Positions 1 through 64,000 of a stretch of DNA of 64,000 nucleotides are shown one piece after another. The notes beneath the pieces were generated by a model. It searched no databases, was not told the DNA's origin, and saw only the letters and a program-made list of their open reading frames with translations. The position numbers and the translations under genes are program-made. The stretch is from positions 387,842 to 451,841 of the forward strand of contig JAFEDK010000019.1 of assembly GCA_018241665.1 (NCBI GenBank), in the 5' to 3' direction. The number at the start of each line of letters is the position of its first letter. Positions within the stretch are counted from its first letter, which is position 1. Source of the DNA: Pseudomonadota bacterium. Its GTDB lineage: Bacteria > Pseudomonadota > Gammaproteobacteria > Burkholderiales > Rhodocyclaceae.

Positions 1-1
1 G

Positions 2-1606: not shown

Positions 1607-1727
1607 GCCCGCCCCCCCAATCCCCCCCACTCCACCCCGGTTCAGCCCACCCGCGCGATCCGCCCCGCGCCGCCCTCCGGCGGCGCGGCGGGAGGACTCA
1701 CGCCCAAAAACGACAAAGGAGACATTC

Positions 1728-2594: not shown

Positions 2595-2625
2595 TTCCCC
2601 CGAACTCGCGCCAAGGAGTGTTTCC

Positions 2626-3096
2626 ATGAAGATCCTGCATGCCCTCGCCTTCAGCATCGCCCTGCTCGTCGCCGCCTGGGTCTATCTCAGCGTCGGCAAC
2701 CCGGACCTCGGCTTCAACCCGTGGATCGGCTTCGTTGCCTGGGCCGCCTTCTTCGCCGCCGGTGGCGGCAGCGGCGGACTGAGCAAGGCCCTCGGCGCCG
2801 GCCTGGCCGGCATCCTGCTCACCGCCGTGACCCTCGCCGGGGTGCAAGCGCTGGGCGGCGGCCTCGGCCCCCTGATCGGGCTGGTCGCCGTGCTGGCCTT
2901 CGTGCTGGTGGCGATGGCCGACATCGGCGCCCTGTCCTACACGCCGGCGGCCTTCCTCGGCGCGGCGTCCTTCTTCGGCTCCGGCGGAAAGATCGACCTC
3001 AGCATCGCCCTCGTCGCCCTGACCTGGATTGCCGGCCTCGCCTTCGGCTACGTGTCGGAGAGCGTCGGCAAGAAGCTCGCCCGCCCCGCCGCCTGA
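2626..3096 (+). CDS. DUF1097-family inner-membrane protein
   Basis: A 156-residue, very hydrophobic protein with about five predicted transmembrane segments (residues near 5-22, 33-48, 58-78, 83-104 and 122-145) and glycine-rich turns. The pattern resembles the DUF1097 family (E. coli YcdZ type), whose function is unknown. The ATG is preceded by CAAGGAG eight bases upstream. It lies 31 bp after the outer-membrane protein gene and 50 bp before the aldehyde dehydrogenase, so all four genes are probably co-transcribed. A transport role in the alcohol pathway is a guess from context only. Confidence 0.65.
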   Translation: MKILHALAFSIALLVAAWVYLSVGNPDLGFNPWIGFVAWAAFFAAGGGSGGLSKALGAGLAGILLTAVTLAGVQALGGGLGPLIGLVAVLAFVLVAMADIGALSYTPAAFLGAASFFGSGGKIDLSIALVALTWIAGLAFGYVSESVGKKLARPAA

Positions 3097-3146
3097 ACCT
3101 CCCCCCCACAACACCCCAACCCCGACACACCTCAAGGAGACCTACC

Positions 3147-4583
3147 GTGACGACCCTCTACGAGAACTACATCGACGGCCGCTTCGTGCCCGCCGACGCC
3201 ACCACCGCCATCGACGTGCATAACCCGGCCACCCACACCCTGCTGGCGCGCATCCCCACTGCCAGCAGCGACGAAGTGAATGCCGCGGTGGACGCCGCCC
3301 GCCGCGCCCAGCCGGGCTGGGAACGCCTGCCGGCGATCCAGCGCGCCGCCCACCTGAAGGCCATCGCCGCCAAGGTGCGGCAGAACAAGGAACGCCTCGC
3401 CGAGATCATCACCCGCGAGCAGGGCAAGGTCCTCGGCCTGGCCCGCGTCGAGGTGGATTTCACCGCCGACTACATGGACTACATGGCCGAGTGGGCACGC
3501 CGCATCGAGGGCGAGATCCTGCAGAGCGACCGCCCGGGCGAGACGATCTTCGTGCATCGCAAGCCGATCGGCGTGACCGTCGGCATCCTGCCGTGGAACT
3601 TCCCGTTCTTCCTGATCGCCCGCAAGATGGCGCCGGCGCTGGTCACCGGCAACACCATCGTCGTCAAGCCAAGCGAGGAGACGCCGATCAACGCCTTCGA
3701 GTTCGCCCGCCTGGTGGCCGAGGCCGGCCTGCCGGCGGGGGTCTTCAACCTGGTCGGCGGGCGCGGCGCCGACGTGGGCGCCAGCCTGTGCACCCACCCG
3801 GACGTGGGCCTGATCAGCTTCACCGGCAGCGTCGCCACCGGCTCGACGATCATGCAGGCCGCCGGCCGCAACCTGACCCGCGTGAACCTGGAACTGGGCG
3901 GCAAGGCGCCGGCCATCGTGCTGGCCAGCGCCGACCTGGACCTGGCCGCCAAGGCGGTGGTGGATTCCCGCGTGATCAACACCGGGCAGGTGTGCAACTG
4001 CGCCGAACGGGTCTACGTGGAAAAGTCGGTAGCCGATGCATTCACCGCCAAGGTGCGCACGCTGATGGCCGCCACCCGCTACGGCGATCCGCTGGCCGAG
4101 CCGGATGTGCATATGGGCCCGCTGGTGAACCGGATCGGCCTCGACAAGGTGGCGGCGATGGTGAACCGCGCCCGCGAGCAGGGCGCCGAGGTGATCCTCG
4201 GCGGCCGCGTGGCGGACCGCCCGACAGGCTTCCACTACGAGCCGACGGTAGTCACCGGTTGCAGCGCCGACATGGAGATCATGCGCAAGGAGATCTTCGG
4301 GCCGGTGCTGCCGATCCAGGCGGTGGACAGCCTCGACGAGGCCATCGCGCTGGCCAACGATTCGGAGTACGGCCTCACCTCGTCGATCTTCACCAAGGAT
4401 CTCAACGCGGCGATGCAGGCCTGCCGCGAGCTGCGCTTCGGCGAGACCTATGTGAACCGGGAGCACTTCGAAGCCATGCAGGGCTTCCACGCCGGCCGCC
4501 GCAAGTCCGGCATCGGCGGTGCCGACGGCAAGCACGGCCTCTACGAGTACACCGAGACCCACGTGGTGTACATGCAGAACTGA
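3147..4583 (+). CDS. aldA: Aldehyde dehydrogenase, AldA-like (lactaldehyde/glycolaldehyde type)
   Basis: NAD(P)-dependent aldehyde dehydrogenase of 478 residues, essentially the length of E. coli AldA. Visible family motifs are the LPWNFPFF segment, FTGS in the nucleotide-binding region, LELGGKAP with the general-base Glu (about residue 251), and GQVCNCAERVYV, in which the second Cys (residue 285) aligns with the catalytic Cys of AldA. The end GETYVNREHFEAMQGFHAG is also AldA-like. The start is GTG at 3147 with AAGGAGA at 3134-3140; the long open frame upstream overlaps the DUF1097 gene and is a shadow. In this operon it would oxidise the aldehyde made by the PQQ alcohol dehydrogenase, although aldehyde formed in the periplasm must first enter the cytoplasm. 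Substrate range is inferred from family similarity. Confidence 0.88.
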   Translation: MTTLYENYIDGRFVPADATTAIDVHNPATHTLLARIPTASSDEVNAAVDAARRAQPGWERLPAIQRAAHLKAIAAKVRQNKERLAEIITREQGKVLGLARVEVDFTADYMDYMAEWARRIEGEILQSDRPGETIFVHRKPIGVTVGILPWNFPFFLIARKMAPALVTGNTIVVKPSEETPINAFEFARLVAEAGLPAGVFNLVGGRGADVGASLCTHPDVGLISFTGSVATGSTIMQAAGRNLTRVNLELGGKAPAIVLASADLDLAAKAVVDSRVINTGQVCNCAERVYVEKSVADAFTAKVRTLMAATRYGDPLAEPDVHMGPLVNRIGLDKVAAMVNRAREQGAEVILGGRVADRPTGFHYEPTVVTGCSADMEIMRKEIFGPVLPIQAVDSLDEAIALANDSEYGLTSSIFTKDLNAAMQACRELRFGETYVNREHFEAMQGFHAGRRKSGIGGADGKHGLYEYTETHVVYMQN

Positions 4584-4603
4584 CCCCGGCACTCCCCCCT
4601 TCG

Positions 4604-4633
4604 GCGGCGCGGGCCTTCGCCGGTCCGCGCCGC
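4604..4633 (+). terminator. Possible terminator hairpin after aldA
   Basis: Perfect 9-bp inverted repeat GCGGCGCGG / CCGCGCCGC with a 12-nt loop, 20 bp after the aldA stop codon and between convergent transcription units. There is no clean T-run after it (only a TTTT about 19 bases downstream), so intrinsic termination is uncertain. The rest of 4584-4763 holds nothing else recognisable. Confidence 0.35.
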
Positions 4634-4763
4634 TGATCGAAAGTTTTCTCCTCGTTGTTCTCCGCGTTGTTGTTACGGCGGCCGCCGACCTCCCGGCCGT
4701 GCCGCCGGGACGGCGGGCGAATCCTCCCTCTCGCCCGTCGTCCCTCCTTTTTTTGCCCCTGCC

Positions 4764-5021
4764 TCAGCCGCCGCTGAGGGCCTGCACGATGACCAGCTCC
4801 TGCACACCGTCGAGCCGCCGGGCCAGGTCGAAGACCTGCTCTCCATCGATGAAGAAGCGGATGTGCGGGCGGATGCGGTTCTGCTCGTCGATCATGCGGA
4901 AGCGGATACCCGGGTAGCAACGATCCAGCTCGGCCAGCACCGCCGCCAGCGTATCCCCGCCCGCCTCGGCGTAAGCCTGCTCGGTGTAGGAGCGCAGCGC
5001 GCTGGGGATCAGCACCTTCAC
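4764..5021 (-). CDS. ThiS/MoaD-family ubiquitin-like protein
   Basis: An 85-residue beta-grasp protein starting VKVLIPSALRSYT and ending in the Gly-Gly tail (VQALSGG) that ThiS, MoaD and related sulphur carriers use for C-terminal thiocarboxylation or conjugation. The GTG start at 5021 overlaps the TGA of the upstream BNR-repeat gene by four bases (GTGA), so the two are translationally coupled. Longer in-frame versions run through the upstream coding sequence and are not credible. It is not beside moaE, thiG or other cofactor genes, so it is probably not the housekeeping MoaD or ThiS. What it carries or modifies cannot be told from the sequence; pairing with a BNR/sialidase-like protein has, as I recall, been annotated in other genomes. 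Confidence 0.75.
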   Translation of the reverse strand: MKVLIPSALRSYTEQAYAEAGGDTLAAVLAELDRCYPGIRFRMIDEQNRIRPHIRFFIDGEQVFDLARRLDGVQELVIVQALSGG

Positions 5022-6196
5022 GACGCGCCCTCCACCCCCATGGCCACCTCCACCGCGTAGATCTCCGGCAGGTGCGCAGCGATGCGCGTCCATTGGCGGC
5101 CCTCGTCGCCGCTCATCCACAGCTCGCCGCTGGTGGTGCCGAAATACAGGCCGACCGGGTCGGCGCTGTCCGCCGTCATGGCCTGGCGCTTGACGGTCCA
5201 CCACGCCTGCTCGGCCGGCAGGCCGGCGTCGAGGCGCTGCCAGCTTTCGCCGCCGTCGCGGGTGCCATACACGGCCGGCTTGCCGCCGGGGCTGGTGCGC
5301 GGCCACACGCTGGTGCCGTCCATCGGAAAGACCCACACCGCATTCGCGTCGCGGGGATGGACGACCATCGGGAAGCCGATGTCGCCCACCTCCGCCGGCA
5401 TCGCGCGGCCGATCCGCCGCCAGGTGTCGGACGGGCGGTCCAGGCGGTAGATGCCGCAGTGGTTCTGCTGGTACAGCCGGTCCGGATTGGTCGGGCACAG
5501 GCGCACGCAGTGGGGATCGTGGAAGGTCGGGTCGCTGCCGTCGAAGCCTTCGACGACCTCGATGCCGCTGAGCAGCGGCGCGAAGCTGCGGCCGCCGTCT
5601 CCCGATTCATGCACGCCGCCGCCGGACATCGCGAAGTACAGGTGCTCGGCGTCGCGCGGGTCGACGATGATGGAGTGCAGCTTGGGGCCGTCCGGCGTGC
5701 CGTCCTGCACGGTGCCCATCCACTTGCGGTACTGCGGGTCGTCGTTGATCGGCGAGAACGGCGCCCAGCTGACGCCGCCATCCTCCGAACGGAACAGGCC
5801 CTGCGGCGAGGTGCCGGCGTACCACACGCCGGGCTGGTCGGCGTGGCCGGGGGTTAGCCAGAAGGTGTGGTCCACCGAACGCCCGCCCTGGCCTTCGGGG
5901 GCCGGCGCGAAGGCCGGCGGCCGGGCGGCTTCCTGCCAGCTGCGCCCCAGGTCGGTGGAACGGAACACCGTCGGCCCGAGGTGGCCGGTCTTGGCGGCCG
6001 CCAGCAGGGTGCGCCCGTCGCGCGGGTCGAGCACCAGGTGGTTGATGATGTGGCCCAGGAAGTGGGGGCCATCCACCCGCCAGTGCTGGCGGGTCGCGTC
6101 GCCGCGGTACAGCCAGGCGCCCTTGCGCGTGGCCACCAGCAGCAAAACGGTGCCAGGGCCGCGTTGCGCGGCCCCTGTGTCGATCTCGCTTGCCAT
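5018..6196 (-). CDS. BNR/sortilin-like beta-propeller protein
   Basis: A 392-residue protein built of Asp-box (BNR, S/T-x-D-x-G-x-x-W) repeats: STDLGRSW, SEDGGVSW, SGDGGRSF, TRDGGESW and SGDEGRQW are all visible, so it should fold as a six- or seven-bladed propeller like sialidases and sortilin. There is no signal peptide, which points to a cytoplasmic location. The ATG at 6196 is chosen because GGAGGA lies just upstream; a longer form starting at 6247 is possible but lacks that site. The last four bases overlap the ThiS/MoaD-like gene. Catalytic residues of sialidases are not recognisable, so an enzymatic function should not be assumed. Confidence 0.75.
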   Translation of the reverse strand: MASEIDTGAAQRGPGTVLLLVATRKGAWLYRGDATRQHWRVDGPHFLGHIINHLVLDPRDGRTLLAAAKTGHLGPTVFRSTDLGRSWQEAARPPAFAPAPEGQGGRSVDHTFWLTPGHADQPGVWYAGTSPQGLFRSEDGGVSWAPFSPINDDPQYRKWMGTVQDGTPDGPKLHSIIVDPRDAEHLYFAMSGGGVHESGDGGRSFAPLLSGIEVVEGFDGSDPTFHDPHCVRLCPTNPDRLYQQNHCGIYRLDRPSDTWRRIGRAMPAEVGDIGFPMVVHPRDANAVWVFPMDGTSVWPRTSPGGKPAVYGTRDGGESWQRLDAGLPAEQAWWTVKRQAMTADSADPVGLYFGTTSGELWMSGDEGRQWTRIAAHLPEIYAVEVAMGVEGAS

Positions 6197-6399
6197 CGCT
6201 CGCTCCTCCAAAAGACCGCCGGCGTGGCGGGAGAGCGGCTGCGGCACGCGTCCGCTGCGCGTGTCAGGGCCGCCAACGCACCCGTGGGTGACGGGAATGC
6301 CTGCTTTCGATCACACCCACGCCGCCGAGTTCGCGGGCCGGGTGCGAGCTGTAGCGGAAACTGGACCGTTGGGGGCGGGGCTGTGGGGTTTGGGCTTCG
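6197..6399. other. Intergenic DNA before the first dispersed repeat
   Basis: Upstream region of the BNR gene (which reads leftward) and downstream of the adenine deaminase gene. No open frame with plausible codon use or ribosome site is seen. The frames crossing it and the neighbouring repeats on either strand are artefacts of the repeat sequence. A promoter for the BNR/ThiS pair is expected here but I cannot pick one out. Confidence 0.5.
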
Positions 6400-6466
6400 G
6401 TGGGGGCGAATTCATTCGCCCTCGGTGGCCAGGTCAACGTCCGAGGGCGAATGAATTCGCCCCTAC
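6400..6466. repeat. Dispersed palindromic repeat, full copy 1
   Basis: A 67-bp unit: left arm GGGGCGAATTCATTCGCCC extended by TCGG, a 15-nt centre, and a perfect inverted right arm ending GCCCCTAC. The arms pair over 23 bp without mismatch. Each arm is also a palindrome by itself (GGGCGAAT, two bases, ATTCGCCC). It lies between the BNR gene and the adenine deaminase gene. Confidence 0.9.
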
Positions 6467-6546
6467 GGGATACGCCACACCATCGAGCCACCTGTCGGCC
6501 AGCCCTTTTGGAAGAACAAGCCGCCACGCTGTGGGGGCTGGGCTGC

Positions 6547-6574
6547 TGTGGGGGCGAATTCATTTGCCCCCACA
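6547..6574. repeat. Dispersed repeat, single-arm copy
   Basis: One arm only of the repeat family, in a variant (GAATTCATTTG core) that forms a perfect TGTGGGGGC / GCCCCCACA hairpin of its own. It ends 22 bp from the 3' end of the adenine deaminase gene, so it could act as a 3'-end structure of that transcript. Confidence 0.8.
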
Positions 6575-6596
6575 TGAAAGGAAGTCTCCTAAGCCT

Positions 6597-7619
6597 TCAG
6601 CGGGCGGCGGCGAAGTAGGTGTCGAGGCGGGCGATCCAGGTGGCTTTTTCGGCGTCGCTGGCGAAGCTTGCCTCGAAGCTGTTACGTGCCAGCCGATACC
6701 AGGTGTCGGCGTCGAAGTGGAAGGCTTCATGCACCGCGCGGATGTTGGCGTTGAGGTAGCCGCCGAAATAGGCCGGGTCGTCGCTGTTGAGCATGACCTT
6801 GGCGCCGGCGGCGAGCAGGCGCGGCAGGCTGTGCTCACGCATGTCCTGGAACACGCACAGGCGGGTGTTGGACAGCGGGCAGACGGTCAGCGGGATGCCT
6901 TCCTCGGCCAGGCGGGCCAGTACCGCGGGGTCGTCCACCGCCCGCACGCCGTGGTCGATGCGCCGGGCGCCGAGCAGGTCGAGGGCTTCGGTGATGTATT
7001 CCGGCGGGCCTTCCTCGCCGGCGTGGGCGACCACCGGCTTGCCGAGTTCGCGGCAGCGGGCGAACAGGCGCGCGAACTTGGACGGCGGGTGGCCGCGCTC
7101 GGACGAGTCCAGCCCGAAGCCGTGGATGCGCGCCAGATAGGGCTCGGCCTCGGCCAGCGTGGCCAGGCATTCGTCCTCGCTGAGGTGGCGCAGGAAGCAC
7201 AGGATCAGCCGCCCCGACACGCCCCAGCGCCGCGCCCCCTCGGCCAACCCGTCGTCGAGGCCGTCGAGCACGGTGGCAAAGGGAATGCCGCGGGCGGTGT
7301 GGGTCTGCGGGTCGAAGAAGATCTCGGCGTGGATCACGCCATCCGCCGCGGCGCGCTCCAGGTAGGCCAGCATCAGGTCGCGGAAATCCTCGCGGGTGCG
7401 CAGCACGTCGGCGCAGGCGTAGTACAGGTCGAGGAAGCTCTGCAGGCTGTCGAAGGCGTAGGCCGCCTTCAGCGCCGCCTCGTCGGCATAGGGCAGCGCA
7501 ACGCCGTTGCGGCGGGCCAGCGCGAAGGCCAGTTCGGGCTCGAGGGTGCCCTCGATATGGACGTGCAGTTCGGCCTTGGGCATGCCGAGGGCCAGGGAGA
7601 GGGCATCGCGCGCAGTCAT
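6597..7619 (-). CDS. Adenine deaminase (Add-like, adenine aminohydrolase)
   Basis: Zinc-dependent deaminase of 340 residues converting adenine to hypoxanthine. The metal ligands and catalytic residues of the adenosine/adenine deaminase superfamily are visible: HVH at residues 19-21, VAHAGEE with the catalytic His and Glu, IDHGVR, and the LNSDDP motif. The sequence resembles the bacterial adenine deaminases often misnamed adenosine deaminase (the Pseudomonas aeruginosa PA0148 type), sharing motifs such as FLDLYYACADVLRT, FFDPQTHTARGIPF, FLRHLSEDE and DSSERGHPPSKF. Adenine is therefore the likelier substrate, and surrounding genes handle free bases (xanthine dehydrogenase, guanine and 8-oxoguanine deaminases). 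The ATG at 7619 follows GGAGAACC. It reads away from the PEP-CTERM gene. Adenosine as substrate cannot be fully excluded. Confidence 0.88.
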   Translation of the reverse strand: MTARDALSLALGMPKAELHVHIEGTLEPELAFALARRNGVALPYADEAALKAAYAFDSLQSFLDLYYACADVLRTREDFRDLMLAYLERAAADGVIHAEIFFDPQTHTARGIPFATVLDGLDDGLAEGARRWGVSGRLILCFLRHLSEDECLATLAEAEPYLARIHGFGLDSSERGHPPSKFARLFARCRELGKPVVAHAGEEGPPEYITEALDLLGARRIDHGVRAVDDPAVLARLAEEGIPLTVCPLSNTRLCVFQDMREHSLPRLLAAGAKVMLNSDDPAYFGGYLNANIRAVHEAFHFDADTWYRLARNSFEASFASDAEKATWIARLDTYFAAAR

Positions 7620-7786
7620 TTTCGGTTCTCCACGTCAGGAACGCTTCGATTGTAGATCGGCAGGTGACCGGGACGGGTAATCGGAAGCGCCCTCAAAAAT
7701 TCACAAGGCATACACTCCGGAACCCCAAATGCATAGACGGTTCGTGCACACGGGGCTGCAATCACCTAATCAACCGGGGACTCACC

Positions 7787-8398
7787 ATGCATAAATTCAC
7801 GCTCAGCCGTGCCGTCGCAGGCCTTGGCCTGCTGGTTCTCGCCACCTTCAGCCATGCCGCCACCTACGAGTTTCACCAGGCAGGTTACACCGGCGGAGGC
7901 GCAGTGAGCGGCTACTTCAGCGGAACGGACCTGAACGGCGACGGCTACCTCGTCGGCACCCATGGGGAAATCGACGGCTTCCAGCTGTCCTTTGCCGGCA
8001 ATGCCGCAGTCGGCGCCTTCAGCATCGACTATGCGGATTTCCTGCAGACGGTGTCGATCGGCTGGGGGCTGATCTACCGGCTCGGCTCGACGACGCTCGG
8101 CACCGAGCTGAACGGCCTCTCCGACGGCATGCTGATGGTGTTCAACTTCGACGCTGACGGCAATCCGCTGGATTCGGTATCGGCCGTCCCCATCGCGAAC
8201 AACTTCGCCGCCGCGGCCGGTCCGGGCACCCTGGGCATCGCCTCAGTCAGCGCCTTCGGCACGGCCTCGGATGCAAACGGCAACGTCGACCTGGCGTTCA
8301 CGCCGATGAGCCTGTCGCTGCAGAGCGTGCCCGAACCCGGCAGCCTGGCCCTGGCGGCCCTGGCCGGCACCGGCCTGCTGGCGCGGCGGCGACGCTGA
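7787..8398 (+). CDS. PEP-CTERM sorting-domain exoprotein
   Basis: A 203-residue exported protein. The N-terminal signal peptide (TLSRAVAGLGLLVLATFSHA) is followed by a beta-rich, low-cysteine body and a C-terminal PEP-CTERM anchor: VPEPGSLALAALAG, a hydrophobic stretch and RRRR. This tail is recognised by exosortase EpsH/XrtA, and such proteins usually go to the cell surface or the exopolysaccharide matrix. The ATG at 7787 has GGGGA at 7776-7780; an upstream in-frame start would bury the signal peptide. No exosortase gene is in this window. The passenger domain matches nothing I can name. Confidence 0.85.
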   Translation: MHKFTLSRAVAGLGLLVLATFSHAATYEFHQAGYTGGGAVSGYFSGTDLNGDGYLVGTHGEIDGFQLSFAGNAAVGAFSIDYADFLQTVSIGWGLIYRLGSTTLGTELNGLSDGMLMVFNFDADGNPLDSVSAVPIANNFAAAAGPGTLGIASVSAFGTASDANGNVDLAFTPMSLSLQSVPEPGSLALAALAGTGLLARRRR

Positions 8399-55179: not shown

Positions 55180-55914
55180 TCAAGGCCTGCGGCGGCGCAT
55201 GAAGCCCAGTCCCGCCAAACCAAGTCCAGTTAGCACCATGCTTGTCGGCTCCGGAACCGTCGTGCCCCCCGAAGGCGTGCTTCCGTCTAGGTTGAAGTGG
55301 AAAGACTGCCCCGAGACTTCACTGGCTACTGTCGCAGCGCCTCCCGAGAAAAGCGAAATTTCTCCCAGACTATTAACGGATGGCAGGCCGTCACGGATGC
55401 CCACGTAAACACTTTTGGTCGAGTTTCCCGCGGTAACGTCACCATAGTAAAAGCCCACATCCCCGTCCGCGGCAGCGCGCGCAGAGCTTGGGTTGTTGAG
55501 CACCAACTGAAACTGGGCACGCCCCGTGTAGTTGTTTAGGGAATAGCCGAGTCGATCCCAGGTCACGACAACTTGATCGGCATCCACTTGCCGAAAATAG
55601 ACCCCGGATCCTCCCGTGCTGGAGGCGATTGCACCCAGCGGATCGCCACGGCTATAGAGATCGCTCCAGTAGACGCCGATGCTCTTGGTGGATGCGACGC
55701 CGGGAAAGCTGACGAAGCCATCGTTGTACACGAGCATCGAATGAAAGGTCTCGCCAAACAAGTCGAGCCCAAAGGGCAAGGGTGCGGTGTAGTGCAGATC
55801 GTCGTTAGGCGTGTAGCCCGTTAGCAATTGCCCAAAATCGGATGTGTAGAGACTCGCCTGGGCGCTGACGGTGGATAGGGACAACGCAGCCAGAATCAAG
55901 ATCTTTCTCATCAT
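55180..55914 (-). CDS. PEP-CTERM exoprotein with nidogen-like domain
   Basis: A 244-residue exported protein. The signal peptide is MMRKILILAALSLSTVSAQA; the body (MLVYNDGFVSFPGVASTKSI, GVYWSDLYSRG, VVVTWDRLGYS, AQFQLVLNN, DVGFYYGDV) follows the NIDO pattern of extracellular adhesive proteins; the C-terminus VPEPTSMVLTGLGLAGLGFM plus RRRR is a PEP-CTERM anchor. ATG at 55914 or 55911, both near GGAAGG. It is surprising inside an integrative element and may be chromosomal DNA between two elements. Confidence 0.78.
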   Translation of the reverse strand: MMRKILILAALSLSTVSAQASLYTSDFGQLLTGYTPNDDLHYTAPLPFGLDLFGETFHSMLVYNDGFVSFPGVASTKSIGVYWSDLYSRGDPLGAIASSTGGSGVYFRQVDADQVVVTWDRLGYSLNNYTGRAQFQLVLNNPSSARAAADGDVGFYYGDVTAGNSTKSVYVGIRDGLPSVNSLGEISLFSGGAATVASEVSGQSFHFNLDGSTPSGGTTVPEPTSMVLTGLGLAGLGFMRRRRP

Positions 55915-55953
55915 CAACACCTTCCACGCCATGCATAATGACTATTATATTCC

Positions 55954-56232
55954 GTGGATTGGCTGTCCCAGTCAACGCATGCTTCATCCGTGGATGAAAC
56001 TGCGTTCAAAATCCTTCAGCGAGACTTGGGAAATGGCATCCGAGTGGCCCGCAAGGTAGTCGGCTTGTCGCAGGAGGCGCTCGCCCTTGCTGCAGACGTT
56101 GATCGCAGTTACGTCTCCCAGCTCGAGCGCGGGGTGGCGAACCCATCTCTCGGAGTTCTTCTGAGAGTGGCAGAAATTCTGGAATGCCAGCTCAAGGTGA
56201 CATTGGAGCACGGCAAGCCAAGCATGGTTTGA
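55954..56232 (+). CDS. XRE-family regulator upstream of the defence operon
   Basis: A small helix-turn-helix protein of up to 92 residues: GIRVARKVVGLSQEALALAA, then DVDRSYVSQLERGVANPSLG as recognition helix and LLRVAEILECQLKVTLEH. The ATG at 55954 gives the longest form; a GTG at 55990 would give an 80-residue protein of more usual length. It reads toward the defence genes 142 bp away and may control them. Confidence 0.75.
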   Translation: MDWLSQSTHASSVDETAFKILQRDLGNGIRVARKVVGLSQEALALAADVDRSYVSQLERGVANPSLGVLLRVAEILECQLKVTLEHGKPSMV

Positions 56233-56259
56233 GCGTGCTTGATCCCAGCTCAAATGAGC
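56228..56259. promoter_or_regulatory. Possible operator between XRE gene and defence operon
   Basis: TTTGAGC (56228-56234) and its inverse GCTCAAA (56248-56254), the latter overlapping a second small dyad GCTCA-AA-TGAGC (56248-56259). The remaining sequence to 56374 must hold the mad1 promoter but I see no clear -35/-10 pair. Confidence 0.3.
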
Positions 56260-56374
56260 CTGACAAGGATGAACCCAGCTAAAGCCGGTTAAACCCTAAT
56301 GGACTGACTGAAGGTGGCGTAAACTGTGTTCAATTGCCGCCATTCCGGCGGCGCATTTCTGTTTGGGTGCAGAC

Positions 56375-56590
56375 ATGGACGACCGCTGGCTCTCTGTCGA
56401 TGAAATCGCCGATTACCTTGGTGTGGCCAAAGACACCATCTACACCTGGGTGACCTCGAAGGGCATGCCGGGGCACAAGGTCGGACGCTTCTGGAAGTTC
56501 AAGAAGGAAGACGTGGACGCCTGGGTGCGAGAGGGCGGTGCCGCTGCCAGCAGTGATGACTTTGATGACAAGGAGCCGCGCAATGCCTAA
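56375..56590 (+). CDS. mad1: MAD1: small helix-turn-helix (excisionase-type) protein of MADS
   Basis: A 71-residue protein of the helix-turn-helix 17/MerR-excisionase fold: WLSVDEIADYLGVAKDTIYT, then GHKVGRFWKFKKEDVDAWVR. In the methylation-associated defence system (MADS) the first gene encodes just such a small HTH protein. Its 3' end overlaps the methyltransferase gene by eight bases. A regulatory role for the operon is likely but not shown by sequence. Confidence 0.78.
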   Translation: MDDRWLSVDEIADYLGVAKDTIYTWVTSKGMPGHKVGRFWKFKKEDVDAWVREGGAAASSDDFDDKEPRNA

Positions 56591-58625
56591 GCAGCGCTCC
56601 GCACAGGACAACAATGATATGAGTGACCTTGATCAAGCAGCCCAAGCGCCTGAGTGCGCACTCGAAGAGGGCAAGGTCTTTGACTACATCACCGGCAAAC
56701 CGGTGAAGGACAGCGACAAGGAACAAGTCCGCCAGCGCATCGCCCGCGCCATCATCCATGAGTACGGCATTGCTGCCGAAGACATGGAGCCTGACTTCAA
56801 GCTCAAGGTACTGGGCAAGAACCGCAAGCTCGACATCGCCATCTTCAAGCCCGGCCAAGCGCACACGATAGACAACCTCTACCGTGCCGTGGCGGTCGAA
56901 AAAGAACCCAAGCTCGGCACCAAGGGCGCCTATCGCATGCGCGACCCGGAAGAGGCGCGCAAAGAGTTTGAGCTGCTGGAAACCGTGATGGCAGAAGTCG
57001 ACTGCTGCGACTACGGCCTGTGGACCAACGGCCTGGAGTTCTTCTTCTTCAAGAAGGAAGTCACCCGTTTCGACACCAAGTTCAAGCCCATAGGCGATTG
57101 GCCCTTGGGTGACGATACCTTCAGCGTCGAAGGCCGCTCCATGGGGCGCTTGCGCCGCGCCGATCCGGTCATGCTGCGCACAGCCTTCCGTCGCTGCCAC
57201 AACTACATCCACGGCAACGAAGGCATGCCCAAGGACGCTGCCTTCTGGCAGTTCCTGTACCTCATCTTCTGCAAAATGTATGACGAACAGCAGCCCAACG
57301 ATGCACGTCGCTTTTGGGTGGGGCCGTTTGAGCCGTTTGAGCCAACTGGGCGCGAGCAAATCCGCCTGCGCATCAAGCCGCTTTTTGAGGCGGTAAAGAA
57401 GAAGTACAGCAGTCTTTTCAAGGGCAACGAAGAGATCACCTTGTCCGACCGGGCCTTGGCTTTTATCGTTTCCGAGCTGGCTCGTTACGACTTTGGTCGC
57501 ACCGATGTGGATGCCAAGGGTACGGCCTACCAAGAGATCGTCGGCACCAATTTGCGCGGAGATCGGGGCCAATACTTCACGCCGCGTGGCGCCATCAGCC
57601 TGGTGGTCAAGATGCTGGCCCCCAAAGAGAGCGAGCGTGTCCTGGACTCGTCCTGCGGCACGGGCGGCTTCTTGGTCGAGACCTTGAACTACCTGAACAA
57701 AGCCTTCCACGAAGAAAAGCGCATCAAGGCAGGTGACGAGAACACCGAAGAGTTCATCTCCATCCGTGACCGGCTCGCCAACTTTGCAGCCAAGAACTTG
57801 TTCGGCGCCGACTTCGACCCCTTCCTGGTTCGTGCCGCTCAGATGAACGTGATGATGGCGGGCAATTCACTGGGTAGCCTGTACCACATGAACTCGCTGG
57901 AATTTCCAGCGGGGCACCTGCCCGGCGTTCAAGCTGCCAAAGAGGCCATCCCGCTCGGCACCATCGATGTCTTGATGACCAACCCGCCGTTTGGTTCAGA
58001 CATCCCTGTCACTGAGAAGACCATCCTGGAGCAGTACGAGCTGGCCCGCCGCTGGGAGCGCCGAGGTGACGGTTTCGTGATGACCAACGCCATCAAGCCT
58101 GCCGTGTCGCCCGAGGTGCTGTTCATCGAGCGCTGCGTCAAGTGGCTCAAGCCCGGTGGCCGAGCCGGCATCGTCCTGCCAGACGGCATCCTGGGCAACC
58201 CTGGCGATGAGTACATCCGTTACTGGATTCTTCGCCACTGCTGGGTCCTGGCCAGCATCGACCTGCCGGTGGAGTCCTTCATCGTCGAGGCCAACGTCAA
58301 CATCTTGACCAGCTTGCTCTTCCTGAAGCGCAAGCCTGAAGAGGTGATCAAGGCAGAAGACCTGGGCCAGAAGAAGGACTACCCCGTCTTCATGGCAGTC
58401 GCAGAGAAGGTGGGCTTCGACCGCCGTGGCAACACCCTCTACAAGCGACACCCTGACGGCGAAGAAATCCTGGTGGATGTCAGTCACGAGGAGAAGGTCC
58501 GCATCGGCGGTGGCCTGCAAGTGCGCACGCTGCATCGCAAAGAACGCATCCTCGACGACGACTTGCCCGAAATCGCCAAGGCGTATGCCGAGTTCCGCGC
58601 CCAACATCCGGAGCCCAGCAAATGA
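56583..58625 (+). CDS. mad2: MAD2: N6-adenine DNA methyltransferase with HsdR-N-like front domain
   Basis: A 680-residue protein. Residues about 35-150 look like the N-terminal nuclease-type domain of type I restriction enzymes (Asp 84 in RKLDIAIFK and E106-K-E-P-K110 in VAVEKEPK). A helical HsdM-N region follows, and the methyltransferase core has motif I in LDSSCGTGGF (from about 354) and motif IV NPPF at 467-470, the type for adenine N6 methylation. GDRGQYFTPRGAI is typical of HsdM. The ATG at 56583 overlaps mad1. With the HsdS-like MAD5 it should mark host DNA; no HsdR-type translocase is visible. Confidence 0.88.
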   Translation: MPKQRSAQDNNDMSDLDQAAQAPECALEEGKVFDYITGKPVKDSDKEQVRQRIARAIIHEYGIAAEDMEPDFKLKVLGKNRKLDIAIFKPGQAHTIDNLYRAVAVEKEPKLGTKGAYRMRDPEEARKEFELLETVMAEVDCCDYGLWTNGLEFFFFKKEVTRFDTKFKPIGDWPLGDDTFSVEGRSMGRLRRADPVMLRTAFRRCHNYIHGNEGMPKDAAFWQFLYLIFCKMYDEQQPNDARRFWVGPFEPFEPTGREQIRLRIKPLFEAVKKKYSSLFKGNEEITLSDRALAFIVSELARYDFGRTDVDAKGTAYQEIVGTNLRGDRGQYFTPRGAISLVVKMLAPKESERVLDSSCGTGGFLVETLNYLNKAFHEEKRIKAGDENTEEFISIRDRLANFAAKNLFGADFDPFLVRAAQMNVMMAGNSLGSLYHMNSLEFPAGHLPGVQAAKEAIPLGTIDVLMTNPPFGSDIPVTEKTILEQYELARRWERRGDGFVMTNAIKPAVSPEVLFIERCVKWLKPGGRAGIVLPDGILGNPGDEYIRYWILRHCWVLASIDLPVESFIVEANVNILTSLLFLKRKPEEVIKAEDLGQKKDYPVFMAVAEKVGFDRRGNTLYKRHPDGEEILVDVSHEEKVRIGGGLQVRTLHRKERILDDDLPEIAKAYAEFRAQHPEPSK

Positions 58626-59959
58626 TCACGCGACTGGAAGCCGCACGCTATCGCTGCTTCGAACGCCTTGGCGTTGATGTCGGCGACTTTCGCGTTCTCG
58701 TCGGGGCCAATGGCTCTGGCAAAACCACGCTGCTTGATCTGCCCGTGCTCTTGGGTGACCTGCTGCGCGCCAACAATGTCTCCGCGCCATTCATGGAGCG
58801 GCGGCCCGAATCGCCGCCGCGTGCTGGCAGTTTGAACGAGTTGGTGTTCGCCGGGCGCGGAAGCGACTTCTCGCTGGCAGTCGAAGCACGCCTGCCGGAT
58901 GCCGTGCAGTCCAACGTGCTCAAAGGCATGTTCGCCAGGAAGCGCACCGAACGCTCGCGCCAGGCCCTGCAAGAAGACCGCCGCCAGTGGCCCACCCACA
59001 TACGCTATGAAATTGGCCTGCGGATCGGTACGGACCAAGCGCTGCAGGTGGCCTACGAATACCTGTTCATGTTCCCAGAATCGGACGGTCCTGACCGCCG
59101 CCAAGCGGGCTTTCACGGCGTCGCTGCAGCCAACAAGAAGCACTGGCACCTCACCCTGAAGCGTGAGATCGGCTATGAATCAGAGTTCTCCCCCGAAACG
59201 CCGCAAGCAAATGCAGCCAAGGTCGGCCTGCCCGAGACCTTGCTCGCCATGCCGCGCGTGCTGTTCGAGTCGGAGGCGGGCTACCCCGCTGCGCGGTGGC
59301 TGCACGGCTTGTTGACCACTGACGCGGTGTTCTTGGAACCCAACTGGTCGGCCATGCGGCAAGCCAGCCCACCGGGGCAGCCCAAGGTCATCACCGCCAA
59401 CGGCCGCAACATCCCGTGGTTGGCCCTGGAGTTGAAGCGCGAGGGCGTGCCGGAAGGCGCGGGCGCAAACTACCGGAGCGAGCGCTATGCCGATTGGATT
59501 GCTCACGTGCAAACCGCACTACCGCAGGTGGTGGACGTGGAGGTACGCGAGCGTGAGGACGACCATCACGCCTACTTCGTGGTCAGCTACAAGGGCGACT
59601 TCAAAGTGCCGTCACCCGGCTTGTCGGACGGCACCCTGCGCATCCTCACGCTGACGCTGCTGCCTTACCTCAGCAAGCAGCCCGCTATCTTGGTGACTGA
59701 GGAGCCGGAGAACGGCATCCATCCGCGCGCTATCGAGGCCGTCTTGCAGTCGCTCTCGTCTATGTACGACAGCCAGGTCTGGGTGTCATCGCACTCACCG
59801 GTGGTCTTGGCGCGTGCCAAGCTGGACCAGTTGCTGTGCGCACGGCTGGCCAGCGAAGGTGGCGTGGAGATGGTCGCCGGAACGGACCATCCTCGCCTGC
59901 AAGAGTGGCGCGGTGGCATCGATCTTGGCAGCCTGTTCGCAGCGGGGGTGCTGGGATGA
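58622..59959 (+). CDS. mad3: MAD3: AAA-family ATPase
   Basis: A 445-residue ABC/SMC-like ATPase of the OLD/RloC type. Walker A is GANGSGKT at residues 28-35; the C-terminal half has LSDGTLRILTLTLL (signature-like), the Walker B region VTEEPENGIHP (Glu 360, 361, 363) and the switch SSHSPVVL. The middle (about 60-250) is the family-specific insert. The ATG overlaps the mad2 stop (ATGA). In MADS this is the ATPase MAD3; it probably senses infection or powers an effector together with MAD4. Confidence 0.85.
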   Translation: MITRLEAARYRCFERLGVDVGDFRVLVGANGSGKTTLLDLPVLLGDLLRANNVSAPFMERRPESPPRAGSLNELVFAGRGSDFSLAVEARLPDAVQSNVLKGMFARKRTERSRQALQEDRRQWPTHIRYEIGLRIGTDQALQVAYEYLFMFPESDGPDRRQAGFHGVAAANKKHWHLTLKREIGYESEFSPETPQANAAKVGLPETLLAMPRVLFESEAGYPAARWLHGLLTTDAVFLEPNWSAMRQASPPGQPKVITANGRNIPWLALELKREGVPEGAGANYRSERYADWIAHVQTALPQVVDVEVREREDDHHAYFVVSYKGDFKVPSPGLSDGTLRILTLTLLPYLSKQPAILVTEEPENGIHPRAIEAVLQSLSSMYDSQVWVSSHSPVVLARAKLDQLLCARLASEGGVEMVAGTDHPRLQEWRGGIDLGSLFAAGVLG

Positions 59960-60612
59960 TGAACAAGCGACCCTGCGTCATCTTGGTGGCCGACAGCAAT
60001 ATGGCTGCCACCTTCCGTGGGTACTTCAAGCGCGAAGCATGGCACCTGAGCCTCGGTTGCGCGCCCTTCGAGATCAACACTGATGTCGGTGCCGACCTGC
60101 TGGTGGACGAAGGCGGCAACGACCCCGGCGTCTACACCAAGGGCCACGAGTTGTTGCGTCCCTACCAGAGTAGCCACCAGCGCGCCCTCGTGGTGCTGGA
60201 CTGCGAATGGGATGGTTCTCCAGGCAAAGACGCGATCGTCGCCCACATCACGGCCAATCTGGTTGCCAGTGGTTGGGCCGAGGATGCGGTCAAGGTGATC
60301 GCCATCGAGCCCGAGTTGGAAAACTGGCTGTGGCAGGACAAGCCGCAGGTGGCAGATGTGCTTCGCTATAAGGGTGATAAGTCGCTGCGTCAGCATCTGG
60401 CTGAGAGCGGATGGTGGCCTGCTGACGCCGCCAAACCACCGCGACCGAAGGAAGCTGCCGAATGGGTGCTTAAGCAGACGAGGCAACCGCGTTCCTCTGC
60501 GATCTACCAGAAGCTGGCTGAGCACATCTCGATCAAGGGTTGCACAGATGCGGCTTTCGCCCAGATGCACGCAGCGTTTTGTACTTGGTTTCCTGTAGAG
60601 GTCGCAGCATGA
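59956..60612 (+). CDS. mad4: MAD4: TOPRIM-like (DUF4276-type) small protein
   Basis: A 218-residue protein starting NKRPCVILVADSNMAATFRG. The stretch ALVVLDCEWDGSPGKDAIVA followed by VIAIEPELENWLW resembles DUF4276, a minimal TOPRIM-type domain with conserved Glu and Asp residues. Such proteins are often encoded next to an OLD-like ATPase and may act with it as a split nuclease, by analogy. The ATG overlaps the mad3 stop and the end overlaps mad5. The catalytic assignment is inferred. Confidence 0.72.
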   Translation: MMNKRPCVILVADSNMAATFRGYFKREAWHLSLGCAPFEINTDVGADLLVDEGGNDPGVYTKGHELLRPYQSSHQRALVVLDCEWDGSPGKDAIVAHITANLVASGWAEDAVKVIAIEPELENWLWQDKPQVADVLRYKGDKSLRQHLAESGWWPADAAKPPRPKEAAEWVLKQTRQPRSSAIYQKLAEHISIKGCTDAAFAQMHAAFCTWFPVEVAA

Positions 60613-62021
60613 CCTTCGCAAATTTCAAGAATGCAAAAATTGTCCGCTCCAATTGGCTCGAAAGCGGCGGCAGGCGGCTTGACTGCAATCCGTATATGTC
60701 CGGAGCGCTAGAGGCAATTGACACTCTCAACGCACTAAACGTGCGTAAAGATCGACTAGATGATGTCACAGACGATATTTTCGATTCCGGGAGAGAGAGT
60801 CGAAACTGGGTTGATGATCCTGCTTTCGGGGTTCCTTATATGGGGACATCGTCGATCCTTTATTCGGACCTGACAACGTTGCCCTTGATTTCCTCAAAGC
60901 AGGTGCAGAGAAATCATCGCTTGCCCATAAAAAAATCTTGGTCGTTGATTACCAGATCCGGCTCCATCGGGCGGATGGCGTATGTTCGCCCCGATATGGT
61001 TGGCATGACTTGCTCGGAAGATGTTCTGAGAGTCGTTGCAAACCAAAGCAAGATTGCCGCAGGCTACTTATATGCATTCTTGGCGTGCAAATACGGCGTC
61101 CCCCTGGTTGTATCTGGAACCTATGGTGCGATTATTCAGCACATAGAGCCAGTTCATGTAAAGGGAATTGAAGTGCCGAGGTTTGGAGATGAAGTCGAGT
61201 CACGAGTCCATCAGCTAGTGGAAAAGGCAGCATTGCTTCGCTCTCAGTATCAGGCAAAGCTAAATCAGGCGACGTGTCGCCTACTCTCGGCTGCGGGCAT
61301 TGAGGACTGTCCTGCTCACGTTTGGAACAAGATGGGCCCGGAGTCAGGCTTTTCTGCGTCAATATCCATTTCACGCAGCATGCGAGCGGCAAATTACTCG
61401 ACACGAGTCCAGCAGTTGTTGGGCATGATCGAGAATAGTGGTTCAACAACGCTCGGCGAAATATGTGATGGGGGTCAGTTAGGAACTGGTACTCGATTCA
61501 AGAGAATTGACTGTGATCCCGAGGAAGGGATCCGGCTTGTCGGACAAAAGCAGGGGTTTTGGATGCGGCCAGAAGGACGTTGGATTGCGCCGCGCTATAC
61601 GCCAGAAGGTGTTTTTGCCACCAATGAGTCGGTTCTTATTGCATCAAGTGGCACATTGGGTGAAAGCGAAGTCTATTGCAGGCCAATTCTGGTTACAGGG
61701 AAATGGCTTGATTTCGCCTATACCCAACATTTCTTGAGAGTGGTGTCTGGGAATTCAGATTTTCCTGGTGCATATCTGTTCGCGTTCCTCAGAAGTGAAG
61801 TGGCCTTTCGGATTTTGCGATCAATGAGCACCGGGAGCAAGCAGCAAGAAATTCACCTTGGCTTCGTCTCCCGGCTTCCCGTCCCAACACTTACCTCTGA
61901 TCTGCGTATCGAAATTGCCGAAACAGTTAGAAGTGCATTTGTAGATAGAGATCAAGCAGACTCATTAGAGGACAAAGCGCTTCTTATTGTGGAGGAAGCA
62001 ATTAAAGGAGGGGCTGCTTAA
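60609..62021 (+). CDS. mad5: MAD5: HsdS-like specificity subunit
   Basis: A 470-residue protein with two target-recognition repeats, each ending in a helical conserved region (VHQLVEKAALLRSQYQAKLN at about 216-235, and the C-terminal IAETVRSAFVDRDQADS). SLITRSGSIGRMAYVRP and VLIASSGTLGESEVYC are the corresponding strands of the two halves. It directs MAD2 methylation to a split recognition sequence. Its base composition is clearly more AT-rich and its codon use looser than in mad2-mad4 and mad6, as expected for a specificity gene exchanged between strains. The ATG overlaps the mad4 stop; the stop overlaps the mad6 start (TAATG). Confidence 0.85.
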   Translation: MTFANFKNAKIVRSNWLESGGRRLDCNPYMSGALEAIDTLNALNVRKDRLDDVTDDIFDSGRESRNWVDDPAFGVPYMGTSSILYSDLTTLPLISSKQVQRNHRLPIKKSWSLITRSGSIGRMAYVRPDMVGMTCSEDVLRVVANQSKIAAGYLYAFLACKYGVPLVVSGTYGAIIQHIEPVHVKGIEVPRFGDEVESRVHQLVEKAALLRSQYQAKLNQATCRLLSAAGIEDCPAHVWNKMGPESGFSASISISRSMRAANYSTRVQQLLGMIENSGSTTLGEICDGGQLGTGTRFKRIDCDPEEGIRLVGQKQGFWMRPEGRWIAPRYTPEGVFATNESVLIASSGTLGESEVYCRPILVTGKWLDFAYTQHFLRVVSGNSDFPGAYLFAFLRSEVAFRILRSMSTGSKQQEIHLGFVSRLPVPTLTSDLRIEIAETVRSAFVDRDQADSLEDKALLIVEEAIKGGAA

Positions 62022-64000
62022 TGGCCAAAGTGATCCCAGTAGGTCAGCCGGTCAACGATGCAGAGCGCAGCGCCATCGCTTACCTGCGGGATCGCTTGCC
62101 AGACAGTTTCGTTCTGCTTCACAACTTCGAGATCGAGCGGCAGGGCGAGCGCTTTGAGATCGACATCGCGTTGCTGACGCCGCACGCCCTGTATCTGATC
62201 GACGTGAAGGGCACGCGCGGCACCATCGATGTGTACGGCAACAAGTGGTACCCCGAGGGGCGCGCGCCGTATCCGTCGCCGCTGGGCAAGCTGCGCGGTC
62301 ATGCGCGCACGGTGAAGGGCTTGGTGACTCAGGCCAATCCCGGTCGGAATGAACTGGACGGTATCTATGTGGATGCCGCCATCCTGCTCACCGCGCCCGA
62401 TGCTCACTTGAATGACCGCGAGCAGCTGGATGCAGACCGGGTAGTGAAGCTGAAGGACGCAGAGCGCTACTTCAAGGATGCCACGCGCATTCCGACGCGC
62501 TTCTCCAAGAACATCCTGCAGCAGCAGGGATTGATCCTGCATGCCTTGAAGGTGGTGAAGCCAGCTTCCGCCGTGCAGCGCTTTGGGCACTGGCAGGTGA
62601 AAGAGAAGCTCGGGGCAGCAGAGGCCTACACCGAGTTCCGCGCCGAGAACGCTTTCGCAGGTGGCACGGCCCGCCTGCGGGTATACCAGGCAGACCCCTA
62701 TCAGCCGGAAGACGTGCGCAAGGCGCAGGTCAACCGCATTGCCAATGCCTACAGGGCGCTGTCCAAGCTGCCGCTGCATCCCAACATCGTGGCGGCGCGG
62801 GATTTCTTCCCGGCCGATGACGACAAGTCGTTCATCCTGATCCTGGACGATGCACCGGGCCAGGCGTTGACGGTGCACATGGCTCGGCCCCAGTTGGCGC
62901 TGACGCTGGACCAGAAGTGGCGCGTGGCCAAAGACCTGTTGGCGGCATTGGCCCACGCCCACCACCACGGAGTGGTGCATCGCAACCTGACACCGGGTGC
63001 GATCTTGATCGGCCAGGATGGCACGACACGCATCACCGATTTCGATTTCGCCAAGCCCGGCATGGACCGCAGTTTGACGATTGCGACGGACATTGTTGAC
63101 TTGGTGGAGAAGGCCTACGTGGCGCCGGAGGCCTTCCGGGAGCCAGGCGCTGCGTCTGCGGCATCAGACATTTTTTCAGCTGGCGTCATTCTCTACGAGC
63201 TGTTCACTGGGGAGCGTCCATTCGCAGGCGAGCCAACCACGGTTTGGGATCGGGCGGGCGAGTTTCTGAACAAGCCCTCCGCGCTGCGGCCAGAGCTGAA
63301 CGAGGCCTTTGACGCATGGCTTCAAAGTCTGTGTGCATTCGATGAACTCCAGCGGCTGACTGCATCGGCCGCGTTGGCGGCATTGAATGCCTTGTTGCAA
63401 CCCGTGGCTCAATCGGGAGTTGGGCCAATGGACGCGCCGAAGCCCGAGCCGCTTGAAGCGGCAGAAGAGACCCAAGCCGATTACTTGAACCTCGTGGCGG
63501 GCTACCGGCTGACCCACAAGTTCATCGTTGAGAAGAAGTTGGGGCGTGGCAGTTTTGGCGTGGTCTACAAGGTGATCGATACCTTGGGGGATGTGGCGCG
63601 CACGGTGAAGCTCATCGTCAGCGACCGGCACTCGACCCTGGAGCGCTTGAAGAAGGAATACCGCCATCTGGTGCACATCCCTGAGCACCCACACGTGGTG
63701 CGTGTGCTGGATGCGGATGTGATCCCTGGGCGTGACATCCCCTTTCTTGTGTTTGAGTACGTGGAAGGTTCCGACGTTGGCGACATGATCCAAGATCGCT
63801 TGCTGTCGCCGGAGGATGCGCTGGAGCTGGGCAAGCAGGTGATGGAAGGCCTGGTACACCTGCATGCGCAGGGCTTCCACCACTGCGACATCAAGCCGCG
63901 CAACCTGCTGTGGACTCAGAAGGGCGCCAAGATCATCGACTTCAATGTGTCGGTGCGAGCCGATGACAAGGAGTCGCGCGGCGGTGGTTCTCGGCGCTAT
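62021..64000 (+). CDS. mad6: MAD6: NERD domain plus tandem protein-kinase domains (PglW-like), 3' end missing
   Basis: The reading frame is open from ATG 62021 to the window end, 660 codons without stop. A NERD nuclease-like domain (about 10-130) has RFEIDIALLTPHALYLIDVK with the D..D-x-K pattern. The first kinase-like domain (about 200-445) has HRNLTP at 320-325 in place of HRDLKP and DFD at 340-342 for DFG, so it looks catalytically dead. The second (from about 500) has the glycine loop GRGSFG (508-513), HCDIKPRN (621-628) with catalytic Asp 623, and DFN at 640-642, so it may be active. This matches MAD6 and also resembles BREX PglW. mad7 and mad8 should follow beyond the window. Confidence 0.85.
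   Translation, partial: MAKVIPVGQPVNDAERSAIAYLRDRLPDSFVLLHNFEIERQGERFEIDIALLTPHALYLIDVKGTRGTIDVYGNKWYPEGRAPYPSPLGKLRGHARTVKGLVTQANPGRNELDGIYVDAAILLTAPDAHLNDREQLDADRVVKLKDAERYFKDATRIPTRFSKNILQQQGLILHALKVVKPASAVQRFGHWQVKEKLGAAEAYTEFRAENAFAGGTARLRVYQADPYQPEDVRKAQVNRIANAYRALSKLPLHPNIVAARDFFPADDDKSFILILDDAPGQALTVHMARPQLALTLDQKWRVAKDLLAALAHAHHHGVVHRNLTPGAILIGQDGTTRITDFDFAKPGMDRSLTIATDIVDLVEKAYVAPEAFREPGAASAASDIFSAGVILYELFTGERPFAGEPTTVWDRAGEFLNKPSALRPELNEAFDAWLQSLCAFDELQRLTASAALAALNALLQPVAQSGVGPMDAPKPEPLEAAEETQADYLNLVAGYRLTHKFIVEKKLGRGSFGVVYKVIDTLGDVARTVKLIVSDRHSTLERLKKEYRHLVHIPEHPHVVRVLDADVIPGRDIPFLVFEYVEGSDVGDMIQDRLLSPEDALELGKQVMEGLVHLHAQGFHHCDIKPRNLLWTQKGAKIIDFNVSVRADDKESRGGGSRRY

Follow-up and report, generated by a model that had tools for sequence, protein, structure and literature searches.

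In this work, we describe an operon of eight genes, mad1 to mad8, that begins near the end of the window (the whole stretch of DNA analysed, 64,000 nucleotides) and that, judged by the family matches of its proteins, is a complete copy of an already-known system, the methylation-associated defence system (MADS). We consider it likely, from the comparison of sequences, that this intact-looking operon works through marking by Mad2 and Mad5 and attack by an SspFGH/DndFGH-type machine made of Mad6, Mad7 and Mad8, with Mad3 and Mad4 placed in an exchangeable slot. If this is true, an SspFGH-type engine runs on methylation as well as on phosphorothioate marks, and a defence operon can offer a slot into which accessory modules are plugged.

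The operon and its identity as MADS

The window is one piece of a contig of 491,260 bases and ends inside the operon, whose eight genes lie on that same contig over 17.05 kb in total. Positions beyond the window are given on L003, which is contig 443842-463841 and whose bases 1-8000 are identical to window 56001-64000.

mad1, 56375-56590, + strand: HTH_17/excisionase-type small DNA-binding protein (NF047737 95.5 bits, cut-off 80; PADLOC mad1 5e-17; HTH_17 4e-17)
mad2, 56583-58625, + strand: N6-adenine DNA methylase whose N-terminal domain is HSDR_N-like (NF047738 1009.6 bits, cut-off 720; N6_Mtase 5e-30; HSDR_N_2 4e-9; motif NPPF)
mad3, 58622-59959, + strand: OLD-type ABC ATPase, accessory slot (NF047739 559.8 bits, cut-off 420; AAA_21 6e-23; hhalign 99.1% against OLD proteins)
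mad4, 59956-60612, + strand: partner of mad3, possibly TOPRIM-like, accessory slot (NF047734 270.1 bits, cut-off 160; weak likeness to DUF4276)
mad5, 60609-62021, + strand: HsdS-like target-recognition subunit (NF047740 568.7 bits, cut-off 400; PADLOC mad5 2e-59, and specificity-subunit models)
mad6, 62021-64000 (first 660 codons), ending at L003:10187, + strand, 1388 aa: NERD nuclease domain, pseudokinase and start of a Ser/Thr kinase in the window, SspF-like C-terminus beyond it (NF047741 760 bits, cut-off 460; NERD and Pkinase matches)
mad7, L003:10187-11860, outside the window, 557 aa (NF047733 651.4 bits, cut-off 410)
mad8, L003:11857-17427, outside the window, 1856 aa (NF047742 232.3 bits, cut-off 175)

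An earlier note on this DNA had placed six genes in this order with every junction overlapping, and both points were confirmed. The genes mad1 to mad6 are all on the + strand, with frames open throughout window 56375-64000, and their junctions are ATGCCTAA (an 8-base overlap), ATGA, ATGA, ATGA and TAATG, as it had described them. Past 64 kb, where mad7 and mad8 were to be sought, both follow directly after mad6 across the junctions TGATG and ATGA, and all seven junctions of the operon overlap. An operon truncated by the window edge was rejected, as it is complete on the contig.

Profile searches bore out the identification as MADS, with family matches well above what chance would give. All eight proteins exceed the NCBIfam equivalog cut-offs for MAD1-MAD8 (the MAD6 and MAD8 models spanning residues 1-618 and 35-242 only), and each has a PADLOC mad match (for Mad2 the generic PADLOC MTase_II model outscores the mad model, 873 against 426 bits). 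The MADS reading is taken as right because all eight pass these models; the genes after mad6 are mad7 and mad8 rather than genes of pglX, pglZ or brx type. Among the labels that had been given to the first six genes, HTH protein, N6-adenine methylase, ATPase, HsdS-like subunit and NERD-kinase protein stand by family matches. The label TOPRIM-like for the fourth gene does not, as this protein lacks a Pfam match above cut-off and has only weak profile and fold comparisons.

BREX was rejected, as PglZ and BrxC/PglY are absent among the eight proteins, and neither PglZ nor BrxC is among their best family matches, which agrees with the earlier view that this is not complete BREX. An Ssp/Dnd system was also rejected, since PADLOC and NCBIfam matched no protein of the operon to SspBCD or DndCDE; the operon is not filed as Ssp or Dnd because the genes for phosphorothioate modification are absent from it.

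MADS was reportedly described by Maestri et al. in 2024 in Cell Host Microbe, and its original operon is said to come from Pseudomonas. PMC12904381, PMC11980395 and PMC11842806 cite Maestri et al. 2024 for MADS, and the first of these, a review from 2026, names the way in which MADS restricts as one of the mechanisms not yet known.

Mad6, Mad7 and Mad8 compared with SspFGH/DndFGH

The Mad6 C-terminus, Mad7 and Mad8 pair one-to-one, and in order, with SspF, SspG and SspH. In profile-profile comparisons with hhalign (69 Mad6 C-termini, 83 Mad7 and 68 Mad8 against 6 SspF, 7 SspG and 7 SspH), the three pairs reached 99.1%, 97.6% and 96.9%, respectively, and the six mismatched MADS-Ssp pairs at most 1.6% each. 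One locus, L030, carries SspF (3e-205), SspG (7e-192) and SspH (0), the last of which is also recognised by the mad8 model (1.4e-20). When MADS and Ssp proteins are aligned, the P-loop GNAGDGKT falls on GTAGDGKS, the Walker-B-like INEG falls on ANDG and the cysteine clusters before a conserved HN coincide; between Mad8 and SspH, the nuclease EVK falls on EAK. The region aligned in this last pair is the middle of the proteins, and homology is demonstrated for the middle alone because their HerA parts gave no alignment above 0.4%. Residues 1679-1824 of Mad8 match HerA-type solved structures (best TdpA, 1.7e-4); a search of solved structures with the Mad7 sequence gave no match.

The residues expected at the active sites are highly conserved. 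For the Mad8 nuclease, D1162 and E1176 were found in 68/68 sequences and K1178 in 67/68; the HerA Walker A is present in 68/68, and the Walker B in 67/68 with one gap. All 69 Mad6 sequences retain the NERD residues D48, D61 and K63, the second-kinase residues K530, E546, D623 and D640, and K849 and T850 of the P-loop, whose domain has Asn replacing the Walker B Asp, while the first kinase reads HRN instead of HRD in 65 of them. An AlphaFold model of Mad8 955-1345 was of middling quality (pLDDT 72), and Foldseek found nothing significant with it (best E 0.17). Fourteen of its first 21 rows, none of them significant, were HamA of Hachiman, Cap4 or FokI, which we take to be PD-(D/E)xK nucleases, and the other seven were unrelated.

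The pairing with Ssp proteins, together with the conserved PD-(D/E)xK motif and HerA motor of Mad8, makes Mad6-Mad7-Mad8 probably the restriction engine of the system, as predicted from sequence. This suggests that the DNA-attacking part of MADS would be a restriction machine of Ssp/Dnd type that works with DNA methylation here, and if so the mechanism is directly testable through E1176/K1178 and the HerA Walker A of Mad8. According to PMC8092258, defence by SspFGH needs each of sspF, sspG and sspH. A dissection of DndFGH (PMC10853773) describes the same P-loop domain, in which Walker B has Asn and a Zn insert may occur; it also reports that the HerA/FtsK motors were acquired from various sources and that some DndF proteins carry NERD, an inactive kinase and an active kinase in front. 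The word MADS is absent from the available text of that paper, and MADS is likewise absent from that of a 2026 BREX paper by two of its authors (PMC12839542). Our literature search, made partly on partial texts, returned no paper linking MADS with SspFGH/DndFGH or describing the slot discussed below, a statement that holds for that search, and the primary MADS paper may state such links.

In the mechanism that we favour, Mad2 and Mad5 would methylate adenines at a motif read by Mad5 and so mark the chromosome as self, and unmarked DNA would be attacked by the Mad6-Mad7-Mad8 machine, recognised through its homology to SspFGH/DndFGH. Mad7 would bind DNA, Mad8 would translocate by its HerA motor and cut or nick through its PD-(D/E)xK domain, and the role of the SspF-like end of Mad6 would be to sense a nucleotide or the invader. 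The NERD nuclease and active kinase of Mad6 may be an added control or a second effector, the OLD-ATPase pair Mad3-Mad4 would most likely be a PARIS-like guard or a back-up effector, and Mad1 is probably a transcriptional regulator.

The locus L024 has an SspF-like gene lacking the NERD-kinase part, followed by mad7, mad2, mad5 and mad8, and by this gene content it is a link between MADS and SspF-type systems. Matches to Mad7 were rare: eight of 398 genomes drawn from the phylum had one (four above the cut-off), as did eight of 60 relatives (three above it), the window's own genome being counted each time. Seven of the nine weaker Mad7 matches come from loci with proteins that match SspG and SspH of L030; the other two are G409 and L026 (G157:C181, 7277 bases), where a divergent 1313-aa kinase and SspF-like protein stands beside a Mad7-like protein of 608 aa. 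The L026 pair is possibly another kinase-bearing FGH system.

The interval between mad2 and mad5

We mapped 87 loci (the window's, 80 others and 6 more). The genes mad2, mad5, mad6, mad7 and mad8 recur wherever the contig suffices, in loci of many phyla, and the interval between mad2 and mad5 varies. Slot contents were assigned by hand, and 70 of the 83 rows of the Mad7 tree could be classified (13 were unclassifiable): 29 hold mad3-mad4, 25 a second methylase, 11 are empty and five fall under other, so that mad3-mad4 is missing from the slot in 41/70. These counts are not an unbiased census, since two Mad7 peptide patterns yielded 99 confirmed loci, of which the 80 best were used. Two loci with small gaps and no clear gene (L081 and L105) were scored as other, and L068, which has mad3-mad4 after mad8 on the opposite strand, was scored as empty. 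As L020 and L107 share a contig, and so do L028 and L039, L020 and L028 were excluded from alignments and tree. On a quick Mad7 tree with several long rows, the slot states need 15 changes, against a mean of 33.2 after shuffling and a value as low in 0/200 shuffles; the states are thus clustered on the tree yet have switched repeatedly.

The second methylase has NPWF at motif IV and a GRYPTP stretch in 22/22 copies, and the first methylases beside it have NPPF and GQYFTP in 22/22. Single-copy methylases (47, L020 included) have NPPF in 44 cases, NPWF in two and a gap in one. By these motifs, the second methylase is a distinct protein. Both architectures occur in the window's genus, with mad3-mad4 in the window and in G406 and the second methylase in G400 (L027), where a GajA-like (Gabija) gene adjoins the MADS operon (L027:1233-3089, - strand, E 6e-235). 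At L111:2456-4477 the second methylase lies in three assembly pieces, the first and last of which match full-length second methylases of relatives.

Other loci show how the slot may change. In Aeromonas popoffii (L043) it holds an ORF of 58 codons that joins the first five residues of Mad3 to about the last 50 of Mad4, which indicates that deletion can produce an empty slot. The slot of Desulforhopalus (L079) contains a SoFic gene, next to a remnant of the second-methylase N-terminus. The slots of two cyanobacteria (L073 and L110), two of the five classed as other, carry a different ATPase pair, made up of a HEC-01A/AriA-like ATPase and a protein of 239-240 residues that did not align with Mad4 (2.9%) or DUF4276 (10.3%).

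A similar pattern of exchange was found among near relatives. In the four nearest operons (L037, L038, L039 and L061), Mad1, Mad2, Mad6, Mad7 and Mad8 are 89-99% identical to those of the window (for Mad8 of L038, over the first 1055 residues), whereas Mad3 is 56-94%, Mad4 40-94% and Mad5 38-46% identical. Mad5 is the most variable gene among them, with 30-72% identity in its first five bins of 40 residues and 12-32% in the last seven, and GC falls to 0.497 inside mad5 (L003:5001-6000). Such divergence in otherwise near-identical operons indicates exchange of the specificity and slot genes around a stable core. The hosts (Pelomonas, Aquitalea, Zoogloea and Pseudoduganella) belong to four families, which favours recent transfer.

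Mad3 is clearly an OLD-type protein (99.1% with OLD proteins by hhalign, 0.2% with SspF and 0.9% with the Mad6 C-terminus). Its partner is more difficult to place. Mad4 has no Pfam match above cut-off and no family besides MADS in profile searches, and Foldseek with a confident model (pLDDT 91.7) gave no match at E <=0.001 (best E 0.018); the first 27 matches, all weak, included four retron Eco2 chains. Comparison with DUF4276 gave 74.7% in a rough set that contained one mis-extended and one probably wrong-frame protein, and 47.8% once this set was cleaned; by subgroup it gave 65.8% with one and 0.2% with the other, and in the rough-set comparison Ala11 of Mad4 stands where the DUF4276 motif has its Glu. 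Nine other comparisons of Mad4 stayed at or below 2.0%, including those with TOPRIM-carrying OLD proteins (0.1-0.2%). As the DUF4276 likeness is weak and an OLD-type TOPRIM alignment is absent, a TOPRIM-like Mad4 is plausible and no more. Pairs of an OLD ATPase and a TOPRIM protein are described in the BREX paper (PMC12839542) as back-up effectors recruited into BREX loci, and by analogy we propose that Mad3-Mad4 may have such a role. A bolder suggestion, which we regard as doubtful, is that MADS might be a modular chassis with an SspFGH-type engine, a methyl-marking pair and one slot for exchangeable guards, where the NPWF methylase would no longer mark DNA and would instead read methylation and license the engine, in place of Mad3-Mad4.

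The executioner could also be another part of MADS, with Mad3-Mad4 or the Mad6 NERD nuclease as the main DNA cutter and Mad8 just a translocase or sensor. Mad3 is of the OLD type, a class whose PARIS and Gabija models are nuclease-linked, and the NERD residues are invariant in Mad6. We nevertheless find this quite unlikely, as the 41 slots without mad3-mad4 (one empty slot having the pair elsewhere and two holding another ATPase pair), the missing NERD-kinase part of L024 and the nuclease residues retained in 67-68 of 68 Mad8 proteins all argue against it. That the copy is decayed or silent, without activity, is very improbable: genes are split in some relatives' assemblies (mad8 in L038 and L109, mad6 in L116), but here each of the eight frames is uninterrupted and of full length, the junctions overlap and the catalytic motifs are in place. 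Ordinary type I restriction-modification by mad2 and mad5 beside unrelated neighbours, to which the N6_Mtase and specificity-subunit matches and the HSDR_N-like start of Mad2 could point, is hardly credible and was rejected, as the eight genes include no HsdR (nor is it among their best family matches, in line with the earlier note), five of them recur jointly across many phyla and every junction overlaps.

Genomic setting and comparison with known systems

DNA homology to congeners ends at the identical base, window 54890, in five genomes; for three of these the comparison extended over longer stretches. Because homology stops there in all five, we take this base as the left edge of a variable region holding the operon, as expected for a shared insertion hotspot. 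The right edge was not found, the downstream flank giving one 41-base match in 1/22 other congener genomes. Between the left edge and mad1, window 55180-55932 (- strand) encodes a protein whose end, judged by eye from the translation, is PEP-CTERM-like and thus of sorting type. The distance from mad1 to an XRE-type HTH gene upstream of it (window 55954-56232, + strand) is about 140 bases; as a conserved part of MADS this gene was rejected, since among the loci compared it was matched, outside its own genome, only in L029, where the match lies about 7 kb away from mad1, and in L060, where it lies past mad8 at 20089. After mad8 come an ORF of 127 codons without a PADLOC match, a protein that matches Nal1_C and a pair of giant ORFs, 3513 and 2674 codons long, with a four-base overlap (L004:302-10843 and L004:10840-18864, contig 464143-482705).

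Like MADS as known, the operon has all eight genes in their numbered order and above the NCBIfam cut-offs, but its Mad5, predicted to recognise the target, differs even from that of near relatives. PglW of type-2 BREX shares the layout of NERD, pseudokinase and kinase with Mad6; however, the match is limited to residues 14-784, the last 600 residues being SspF-like instead and without a PglW match, and the operon lacks PglZ and BrxC. Mad3 resembles the ATPase of PARIS (AriA-AriB) and other pairs of OLD ATPase and nuclease in being of the OLD type and next to a small partner gene, whereas Mad4 lacks a Pfam match, is weakly like DUF4276 and shows no OLD-type TOPRIM likeness. Counterparts of F, G and H of SspFGH/DndFGH are present here in the same order, but marking is by SspBCD/DndCDE there and by a methylase with a specificity subunit in MADS, the HerA part of Mad8 differs from that of SspH, and Mad6 carries an extra NERD and two kinase domains in front, a domain layout that is also that of the NERD-kinase-bearing subset of DndF.
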